From: Owenia fusiformis
Lineage: Eukaryota > Annelida > Polychaeta > Sabellida > Oweniidae
DNA length: 64,000 bases
Reading direction: 5' to 3'
Assembly (NCBI GenBank): GCA_903813345.2
Contig: CAIIXF020000004.1
Coordinates: 6,529,525 to 6,593,524, forward strand
Made by a program: the position numbers and the translations under genes. A model generated the notes under the pieces. That model saw only the letters and a list, made by a program, of their open reading frames with translations. It searched no databases and was not told the origin of the DNA. Positions 9,301-38,180 of this stretch are shown piece by piece (positions within the stretch are counted from its first letter, which is position 1; each line of letters opens with the position of its first letter).

Positions 9301-12300
9301 TAATCAGTATAACGATGATTCAATAAACAGGATATAAATTAAGCATGCATGTTGATCGGCGAGTGAGTAACTTTGCATATAGTACGATTTTCAACAGACG
9401 CCATGTATTTCCTATGCGCAACTTCAAAGTAGAATTTAAGGTAAGTTATATTCATTTACACCTCCATTTTGAAAATATATACAACTTGGGCTTTTATTTA
9501 TATAGAACATTGGTCCGATAGTATGTTTGGAAGAAATCAGTCATTCAGTCAAATTATTTTACTTCGACGTAGCAAAATGATAGTGATAACGTAGCAAAAT
9601 GATAGTGATAACGTAACAAATACCTAAGAGTAGATAGAAACGACATAGCAATCGCAGCTCATATAATTGTGTTGTGTTATCAATGTAAATAATACTAAAG
9701 AACAACATTTCCTGTATTTTTGAGGACCATTAAGGAACATTATACAAGCTGAAAGTTATTTAGTGATGTGTCTTATTTCAGTGTTTGATAATTGAAGCAT
9801 CTTGTTTTTGATCAAATGCAGATAGTTTATGGTTGAGAAAACCATCAATGAATGAAAACAAAGAATTTAATAAAACTCCATAGATATACATGTGTCGTTA
9901 GTTTTGTGTTACTAGGCATGATGTTTGAGTTACGTTAAACGCCAGTGTTATACTACATTTGTGAATTCAAATTTTTGTAAACTACAATATTGCAAGAGTC
10001 AAGGCGAGTTGTATTTCGAAGTATAATTGTGATTTTACACTTGACATTTTGTTTTCAATTCTCTGGGGTCTGATATTTTCAAATGGGCAGAATCGTGATT
10101 CGCACTGTTATGAAAACATATACAATTAAAATCCTTGCCTGTTATTCCAGTAGCACCGACTGGACCAGTTGCACCAGTTGGACCTGTTGTACCAGTCGAT
10201 CCTGTAGCACCTATTGATCCAGTTGCACCAATCGGCCCTGTTATACCAGTTGGTCCCGTAGCACCTGTTGGACCAGTTGATCCAGTGGTTCCTGTTGCAC
10301 CAGTTGATCCAGTGGCTCCTGTTGCACCAGTGGATCCAGTGGCTCCTGTTGCACCTGTTGATCCAGTAGCTCCTGTTGCACCAGTTGATCCAGTAGCTCC
10401 TGTTATACCAGTTGATCCAGTAGCTCCTGTTGCACCTGTTGAGCCAGTAGCTCCTGTTGCACCTGTTGACCCGGTGGCTCCTGTTGCACCAGTTGATCCA
10501 GTAGCTCCTGTTGCACCAGTTGATCCAGTAGCTCCCGTTGCACCTGTTGAGCCAGTGGCTCCTGTTGCACCTGTTGATCCAGTAGCTCCTGTTGCACCTG
10601 TTGATCCAGTAGCTCCTGTTGCACCAGTTGATCCAGTAGCTCCTGTTGCACCAGTTGATCCAGTAGCTCCTGTTGCACCTGTTGATCCAGTCGCGCCTGT
10701 TGCACCAGTGGATCCAGTAGCGCCTGTTGCACCAGTCGATCCAGTAGCTCCTGTTGAACCAGTTGATCCAGTAGCTCCTGTTGCACCTGTTGAGCCAGTG
10801 GCTCCTGTTGCACCTGTTGATCCAGTGGCTCCTGTTGCACCAGTGGATCCAGTAGCGCCTGTTGCACCAGTTGATCCAGTAGCTCCTGTTGCACCAGTTG
10901 ATCCAGTAGCTCCTGTTGCACCAGTTGATCCAGTAGCTCCTGTTGCACCTGTTGAGCCAGTGGCTCCTGTTGCACCTGTTAATCCAGTGGCTCCTGTTGC
11001 ACCAGTTGATCCAGTAGCTCCTGTTGCACCTGTTGATCCAGTAGCTCCTGTTGCACCAGTTGATCCAGTAGCTCCTGTTGCACCTGTTGATCCAGTCGCG
11101 CCTGCTGCACCAGTGGATCCAGTAGCGCCTGTTGCACCAGTCGATCCAGTAGCTCCTGTTGCACCAGTTGATCCAGTAGCTCCTGTTGCACCTGTTGAGC
11201 CAGTGGCTCCTGTTGCACCTGTTGATCCAATAGCTCCTGTTGCACCAGTAGCTCCTGTTGCACCAGTTGATCCAGTAGCTCCTGTTGCACCAGTTGATCC
11301 AGTAGCTCCTGTTGCACCTGTTGAGCCAGTGGCTCCTGTTGCACCTGTTGATCCAGTAGCTCCTGTTGCACCAGTTGATCCAGTGGCTCCTGTTGCACCA
11401 GTTGATCCAGTAGCTCCTGTTGCACCTGTTGAGCCAGTGGCTCCTGTTGCACCAGTTGATCCAGTAGCTCCTGTTGCACCTGTTGATCCAGTGGCTCCTG
11501 TTGCACCAGTTGATCCAGTAGCTCCTGTTGCACCAGTTGATCCAGTAGCTCCTGTTGCACCTGTTGATCCAGTAGCTCCTGTTGCACCTGTTGATCCAGT
11601 GGCTCCTGTTGCCCCAGTTGATCCAGTGGCTCCTGTTGCACCAGTTGATCCAGTAGCTCCTGTTGCACCTGTTGCACCTGTTGAGCCAGTGGCTCCTGTT
11701 GCACCTGTTGATCCAGTAGCTCCTGTTGCACCAGTTGATCCAGTGGCTCCTGTTGCACCAGTTGATCCAGTAGCTCCTGTTGCACCTGTGGCTCCTGTTG
11801 CACCTGTTGATCCAGTGGCTCCTGTTGCACCAGTTGATCCAGTAGCTCCTGTTGCACCTGTTGATCCAGTGGCTCCTGTTGCACCAGTTGATCCAGTAGC
11901 TCCTGTTGCACCAGTTGGTCCTGTTGCACCAGGTGGTCCTGTTGCACCAGTTGATCCAGTAGCTCCTGTTGCACCTGTTGAGCCAGTGGCTCCTGTTGCA
12001 CCAGTTGATCCAGTAGCTCCTGTTGCACCTGTTGATCCAGTAGCTCCTGTTGCACCAGTTGATCCAGTAGCTCCTGTTGCACCTGTTGATCCAGTATCTC
12101 CTGTTGCACCAGTTGATCCAGTAGCTCCTGTTGCACCTGTTGATCCAGTGGCTCCTGTTGCACCTGTTGATCCAGTAGCTCCTGTTGCACCAGTAGCTCC
12201 TGTTGCACCAGTTGATCCAGTAGCTCCTGTTGCACCAGTTGATCCAGTAGCTCCTGTTGCACCAGTTGATCCAGTAGCTCCTGTTGCACCTGTTGAGCCA

Positions 12301-38180: not shown

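Follow-up and report, generated by a model that had tools for sequence, protein, structure and literature searches.

Organization of the Locus

The window, i.e., the whole 64,000-nucleotide stretch of Owenia fusiformis DNA that was analyzed, carries on its minus strand a predicted collagen gene of giant size, which as modelled consists of six exons running from 38180 to 10139 (Table 1). The five introns separating these exons are all GT-AG introns and all are of phase 1. An earlier note on this DNA had proposed these same six exons, and all were reproduced. That exons 1 and 2 are joined to the collagen exons is a prediction, one based on matching donor, acceptor, and phase.

Table 1. Features of the giant collagen locus, of the exons found beyond the window, and of a second collagen-EGF-TM locus, with exons as read from sequence. 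A coordinate in the flanking piece L040 equals the window coordinate plus 10,000.
Feature	Position	Strand	Description
Exon 1 (as modelled)	38021..38180	-	160 nt; ATG right after acceptor ttcag; phase-1 donor; predicted; basic N-terminus and signal-anchor-like hydrophobic segment
29-bp minisatellite	32673..33373		24.2 copies; intron 1, just before exon 2
Exon 2	31706..32602	-	897 nt; phase 1 in and out; Q/D/N/H-rich ectodomain; KQQDPH and NNQ/DNQ repeats; ends in GKRHLFKRQ (dibasic cleavage site)
Exon 3	31042..31278	-	interrupted Gly-X-Y with [IF]GATGP signatures
Exon 4	30608..30667	-	collagen, 60 nt
Exon 5	29330..29386	-	collagen, 57 nt
Exon 6	10139..27499	-	17.4 kb; uninterrupted Gly-X-Thr helix; ends in phase-1 GC donor ACAG|gcaagg
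Alternative 3' end	10035..10138	-	read-through to TAA at 10035; short tail carrying 3 Cys; would be intronic under use of the GC donor at 10139
AATAAA for alternative 3' end	9493..9498	-	about 540 nt past TAA; hexamer common by chance in AT-rich DNA
EGF/collagen/TM block	L040:701-8366 (window -9299..-1634)	-	exons of phase 1; read from sequence
EGFa (cbEGF)	L040:8366-8256	-	phase 1
EGFb (cbEGF)	L040:7435-7313	-	phase 1
Atypical 4-Cys EGF	L040:7039-6944	-	phase 1
Second Thr-type collagen exon	L040:6736-6242	-	495 nt, interrupted; phase 1
EGF2	L040:5855-5739	-	phase 1
EGF3	L040:4981-4856	-	phase 1
Last exon	L040:1653-701	-	heptad stretch, TM, basic stop-transfer, cytoplasmic tail; phase 1
C150 collagen-EGF-TM locus	L021 (C150:1-9000) 1072-6667	+	on 25-kb contig; predicted splicing

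Additional features are found in the same DNA. A plus-strand open reading frame, 38034-38561, lies antisense to exon 1 and by eye resembles the C-terminus of a non-LTR retroelement, with Pfam returning nothing for it at E <= 0.01. Just beyond the giant exon, inside what is a putative long intron, there is a reverse transcriptase fragment (7541-8167, plus strand; RVT_1, 50.3 bits). A 17-bp unit is present twice at one of 46067-46100 and 49027-49060, and its reverse complement twice at the other, 3 kb away, and these units could possibly be mobile-element ends. A 153-bp tandem repeat, in 5 copies, occupies 62958-63721. Rfam, as searched over the window, gave 0 matches at gathering scores.

The Predicted Protein

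The joined exons, if read as far as the TAA, give a protein of 6,291 amino acids. A basic N-terminus precedes a hydrophobic peak at residues 18-42, and residues 55-352 (298 residues) then are rich in Q, D, N, and H, with KQQDPH repeats. The dipeptide KR is found at residues 349-350, with dibasic sites being KR only and RXXR occurring nowhere in the 6,291 residues. Gly-X-Y starts at residue 355 and is broken by six short interruptions, the last of which ends at residue 461. From there onward the triplets are unbroken, numbering 1,933 if read to the TAA, or instead 1,932 with splicing at the GC donor, which the last triplet, GKD, straddles.

The composition of this helix is close to uniform. Over the 1,933 triplets, the Y position is occupied by Thr 1,900 times, with Ser (11), Ile (8), Val (4), Ala (3), and others (7) making up the rest, while X is occupied by Ala (1,200), Ser (619), Pro (50), and others (64). 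Proline, that is, is found at only 2.6% of X positions and, with two instances, 0.1% of Y positions, and threonine represents 32% of the chain past the KR site. With 5,799 unbroken residues at 0.286 nm each, the rod that is predicted, as computed from sequence, would be 1.66 µm in length. The earlier note had spoken of about 5900 residues of Gly-X-Y (found here as residues 355-6260), of a fibre of about 1.7 µm, and of an anchor-like start, a KR site, and Thr in nearly every Y, all of which is borne out at the level of sequence.

Pfam Collagen (PF01391; curated cut-off 27.2) scores above its cut-off, at 51 bits over residues 462-513 and at 29.8 bits over the C-terminal piece. A Pfam search of the whole genome nevertheless gave no row at the giant collagen locus, with 150 of 1,781 candidates scored, and a routine domain scan, given so few candidates scored, can therefore miss such a locus. 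Exon 6 also contains three near-identical proline-rich nodes, found at about helix triplets 700, 1140, and 1536, i.e., with spacings of 440 and then 396 triplets, which possibly are register or nucleation marks.

Repeat Array and Selection

The array of exon 6 consists mostly of a 27-bp unit (encoding GAT GAT GST), which Tandem Repeats Finder (TRF) reports over 10164-27442 as period 27 and 645.6 copies. Longer blocks are repeated as well, at lags such as 3,357, 3,564, and 3,303 nt, with the best segments being 1.1-1.8 kb in length and 92-97% identical. As judged from these two scales of repetition, the helix is one that has grown by duplication both of the 27-bp unit and of kilobase blocks. 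Repeat length here is as assembled, and alleles may differ in it.

An array such as this, of roughly 646 tandem copies, might also be viewed as a non-coding satellite whose open frame is fortuitous. Indeed, one antisense frame too is open, and is so across 5,800 codons, such that openness alone is little proof of coding. Substitutions between repeat units supply a more discriminating measure. Among 596 units, picked solely for their nucleotide similarity to the consensus, single-nucleotide codon differences in the collagen frame are 997 synonymous versus 94 non-synonymous, for a pN/pS of 0.047, versus 6.3 and 9.9 for the other two forward frames. On the antisense strand the values are 69.5, 0.13, and 29.8, with the 0.13 belonging to the open antisense frame, which was rejected as a coding candidate, being a shadow of the collagen frame's third positions. 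An earlier count, which involved 552 units conditioned on Gly and GST, had given 0.025.

The glycine codons of exon 6 vary in their third position (GGA 1,036, GGT 701, GGC 114, GGG 79), and yet glycine has been lost at 0 of 1,930 of them. Splice-framed collagen exons furthermore are present on the 5' side of the array. A satellite with a merely fortuitous frame is, on these grounds, scarcely credible, and the array, as judged from its pattern of codon differences, is coding and under selection rather than bare satellite.

Exons Beyond the Window

Collagen was also sought outside of the window, over 100 kb on each side, taken as 20 pieces. It was present in one of these, L040, on the left side, where it lies on the same strand as the giant exon and downstream of it. 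The collagen there is accompanied by EGF exons and by a last exon with a transmembrane (TM) stretch, with the block as a whole lying 11.8-19.4 kb beyond the giant exon. These exons possess AG acceptors and GT donors, all of phase 1, the join from EGFa to EGF3 is open, and the last exon is open to its stop. As joined, they score above cut-off for Pfam EGF_CA, FXa_inhibition, cEGF, and Collagen. The last exon contains a heptad stretch, as judged by eye (LTDVDNK, LLNVDDK, LLNVDDK, FINMDDK), as well as the hydrophobic TM stretch VVWVVITTLAVAIISCVAV. Lengths of the exons up to 10139 plus those of the downstream exons sum to 20,793 nt including the stop, or about 6,930 amino acids, if none has been missed within the gap between EGF3 and the last exon.

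A second locus in the same genome, designated C150, is useful for comparison. There, collagen with 41% Thr in Y is followed, on one strand, by cbEGF, cbEGF, an atypical EGF, and a TM exon, with its longest unbroken run differing from the giant helix in being just 260 triplets. The C150 contig starts about 1.07 kb before the first collagen seen, so that the comparison covers the collagen and what follows it. Ten stretches of the genome, chosen from the Pfam list and so not constituting a census, supplied as other long runs those 260 triplets along with 325 triplets on a contig designated C2.

Does the Giant Exon Join the Downstream Block?

That the transcript runs on through a GC-AG intron into the EGF, collagen, and TM exons is, on splice signals and exon order, reasonably probable, and the gene within the window probably is incomplete. 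The end of the helix coincides with a phase-1 GC donor, and along the minus strand of the 64-kb window AGGCAAG is present at just two places, one of these being exactly here. The order of domains seen at C150, with collagen preceding EGFs and TM on a single strand, likewise favors joining. Each locus has an atypical EGF, and these two match one another better, if narrowly, than they match anything else compared (39% over 28 amino acids, E 2e-5, 23.9 bits, with runners-up at 22.3 and 23.1 bits). EGFa and EGFb are 44-55% identical to the first two C150 EGFs, matches which are unspecific as EGF2 and EGF3 match C150 EGFs nearly as well (33-47%). The signature [IFLV]GATGP, following a broken triplet, is found 6 times in exons 3-5 and 4 times in the downstream collagen exon, and 0 times in the 18 other collagen-bearing loci examined, some of which overlap, with this pattern having been written after the signature was seen.

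Other observations count against joining. GC donors are rare, accounting for about 1% of introns, and this rarity is a point against the model. The TAA lies at most 104 nt from the GC donor and is itself followed, at about 540 nt, by AATAAA, such that the gene could terminate at this point. Between the giant locus and C150, the TM exons show no detectable homology (E 0.57), which also counts against. In a scan of the DNA between the two halves for a hydrophobic first exon possessing a phase-1 donor, 6 hits were found at 3 places, versus 3 hits at 2 places for a control consisting of two stretches of equal length. A candidate among these, 3928..3745 on the minus strand, has a good donor (8 of 9) and it is possible that it is the EGF block's own first exon. 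Another candidate, at 4637 on the minus strand, was rejected, as no phase-1 donor was seen in its sequence.

Proposed Mechanism

The explanation which best fits these observations is that of a giant membrane-anchored collagen that is joined to the EGF and TM exons. Considered as a whole, i.e., including the mechanism proposed here, this explanation is held with somewhat more belief than disbelief. The N-terminus would be inserted as an N-in signal anchor. Chains would then trimerize upon the membrane-proximal heptad stalk, near the C-terminal TM, and from there would fold, zipper-like, into a rod of about 1.66 µm, with the proline-rich nodes perhaps setting chain register within what is otherwise a degenerate repeat. 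With proline so scarce in both X and Y, a native triple helix would need some stabilizer besides hydroxyproline, and O-linked sugars on the threonines in Y could stand in as that stabilizer, by analogy with Riftia cuticle collagen. A protease of prohormone-convertase type would cut at the KR, removing both N-terminal anchor and ectodomain. What would be left is a glycosylated rod, tethered by its C-terminus at the epidermal surface, and contributing to the building of cuticle, tube lining, or glycocalyx.

The product, as predicted, looks like a sugar-coated surface fibre, for which cuticle, tube, and glycocalyx all fit. Owenia microvilli reach into the cuticle, according to a figure legend (PMC6417257), and oweniid tubes are described as layered and fibrous, with those of Owenia collaris being a layered fibrous plywood (PMC4375521). 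The fullest version of the proposal posits a TM helix at each end of the collagen, that is, a two-TM precursor, trimerized at its C-terminal stalk and freed at its N-terminus by cleavage at KR, giving a nearly proline-free, Thr-glycosylated, 1.66-µm rod upon the epidermal membrane. This version is put forward tentatively, as more doubtful than not, and it would be unusual for a collagen to possess a TM at either end, which counts against the best explanation.

Alternative Readings

The foremost alternative is close to the earlier note's own view, which was of a gene complete at this end and of a type II membrane collagen that is shed. In this alternative the gene stops at the TAA at 10035, and cleavage at KR would wholly shed a Gly-X-Thr rod possessing a short, cysteine-containing tail, with the EGF and TM exons belonging to a tandem neighbor that has its own first exon. 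The frame is indeed open to the TAA, the tail has its three cysteines, AATAAA follows at 9498, a first exon for the neighbor may exist (3928..3745, minus strand), and type II anchors along with shedding are known among MACIT collagens (PMC4678570). On the other hand, the short tail shows no trimerization domain, that tail starts exactly at a donor consensus, and the neighbor would be without a collagen ahead of its EGFs such as C150 has. This alternative is rated as clearly less likely than not. Of the earlier note's view, the anchor-like start holds up in sequence, but a shed type II collagen would be mistaken, or correct only by half, if a C-terminal membrane anchor remains after cleavage at KR, as it may. 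The gene also probably is not complete, as the EGF, collagen, EGF, and TM exons lying in phase on its strand probably belong to it. Preference is given here to a membrane-anchored collagen-EGF protein rather than to a type II collagen that is purely shed.

Doubt can be directed as well toward the two ends of the argument, that is, toward the gene's start and toward the triple helix itself. Exons 1 and 2 might lie outside of the gene, with some other first exon supplying a signal peptide, in which case the collagen would be an ordinary one, secreted or of type I. Exon 1 is, after all, merely 160 nt in length and 5.4 kb from exon 2, and is crossed on the plus strand by the retroelement-like reading frame described above, for which Pfam found nothing. 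Exon 2, however, is open over its 897 nt, its splice sites are good, its phase fits, and its in-frame repeats end in KR, and the donor and phase of exon 1 agree with it. A different start is rated as improbable. More improbable still is that there is no triple helix, with the chain existing instead as a single, polyproline-II, O-glycosylated rod, mucin-like or antifreeze-glycoprotein-like, in which Gly-Ala-Thr is a scaffold for sugars. The paucity of proline and the abundance of threonine would suit such a rod, and the bare sequence, going by host-guest data, would form a weak triple helix. Glycine nevertheless is kept in 1,930 of 1,930 triplets within exon 6, something of which neither a mucin nor an antifreeze glycoprotein, the latter consisting of Ala-Ala-Thr and not requiring Gly at every third residue, has need, and Pfam Collagen is recognized in the segments on its flanks.

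What then would such a gene imply? With almost nothing but Gly-Ala-Thr and Gly-Ser-Thr extending over 5,800 residues, it makes testable whether O-glycosylation alone can hold together a micrometre-long triple helix, and makes testable also by what means chains of so degenerate a repeat come into register. The two-TM version, if true, would be a collagen in which O-glycosylated threonine almost wholly replaces proline and hydroxyproline over a micrometre, and which links the cell membrane to cuticle or tube. Oweniids represent a basal annelid clade (PMC6417257), and a gene with such a host thereby bears on the origin of the annelid body covering.

Comparison with Known Collagens

Among bacterial collagens, Thr is the main Y residue and BclA is glycosylated (PMC8968730). 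A 1,000-residue piece of the helix, searched against a protein database, matched 6,398 of 7,996 scored proteins, and the whole helix 12 among 966 scored proteins, with both searches scoring only those candidates sharing the most words. The longest unbroken run was 196 triplets among 132 retrieved proteins from the database and 99 triplets for the whole-helix search, and one database protein (P0034) has 98% Thr over 146 triplets. A bacterial origin was rejected, as this gene is spliced and is found on a 31.9-Mb contig, though Gly-X-Thr collagens are common in the database. Versus BclA-type Gly-X-Thr collagens, what is found here are 1,932-1,933 unbroken triplets in a spliced animal gene.

The earlier note had drawn a parallel with nematode cuticle collagens. 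Those consist of short interrupted blocks with flanking cysteines (PMC11766948), and the parallel turns out to be weak, with neither an RXXR site nor short interrupted Gly-X-Y blocks with conserved flanking cysteines being present here. The MACIT collagens (XIII, XXIII, XXV, and C. elegans COL-99) have a type II anchor and a basic cleavage site before the collagen (PMC4678570). The likeness is in the type II signal-anchor-like start, as assigned from hydropathy and a basic N-terminus only. Differences are that KR takes the place of a furin site, RXXR, between TM and collagen, that a single giant helix, 1,932-1,933 triplets long and accompanied by short interrupted segments, is present rather than three COL domains with NC1-NC4, and that there is a probable C-terminal TM. 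The N-terminal 351 residues, searched against the protein database, matched 0 of 1,009 candidates at E <= 0.1.

Giant collagens have already been described from annelids, with predictions of 8,859 amino acids for Alvinella pompejana, 8,689 for P. pandorae, 8,413 for P. grasslei, and 7,719 for P. fijiensis, along with one that is similarly long from Eisenia andrei, all five being proline-rich (PMC12403961). G-P-Y makes up 33-40% and G-X-P 21-33% of these published giants (PMC12403961), versus 2.6% and 0.1% here. Section 12 of that article mentions neither Owenia nor threonine, describes no anchor, KR, or EGF parts for the annelid giants, and has siboglinid predictions reaching no similar length, with the Riftia prediction richest in repeats having 840 by the count of Table 1, versus 5,012-5,722 for the giants (PMC12403961). 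The earlier note's statement that no complete published gene with such a layout was known stands as concerns the layout, none having been found in searches of open-licence papers, but not as concerns giant size, which is already in print, if in proline-rich form (PMC12403961).

There is a likeness to annelid cuticle collagen as well, in the form of a single uninterrupted micrometre-long helix (here predicted as 1.66 µm). A long cuticle collagen from the annelid Riftia pachyptila, with sugar-stabilized Thr, was reportedly described by Mann et al. in 1996 and Gaill et al. in 1995. Riftia cuticle collagen is cited as being stabilized by glycosylated Thr (PMC11766948, PMC6953826, PMC10141479), and by its described features, i.e., a long annelid helix with Thr in Y (here 1,900 of 1,933), it resembles the helix of the present gene. 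The present gene differs in that Thr represents 98% of Y, with X being Ala or Ser and 2.6% Pro. Giant annelid collagens and Thr-stabilized cuticle collagen, that is, are both already known, and what is new is the near-pure Gly-X-Thr layout.
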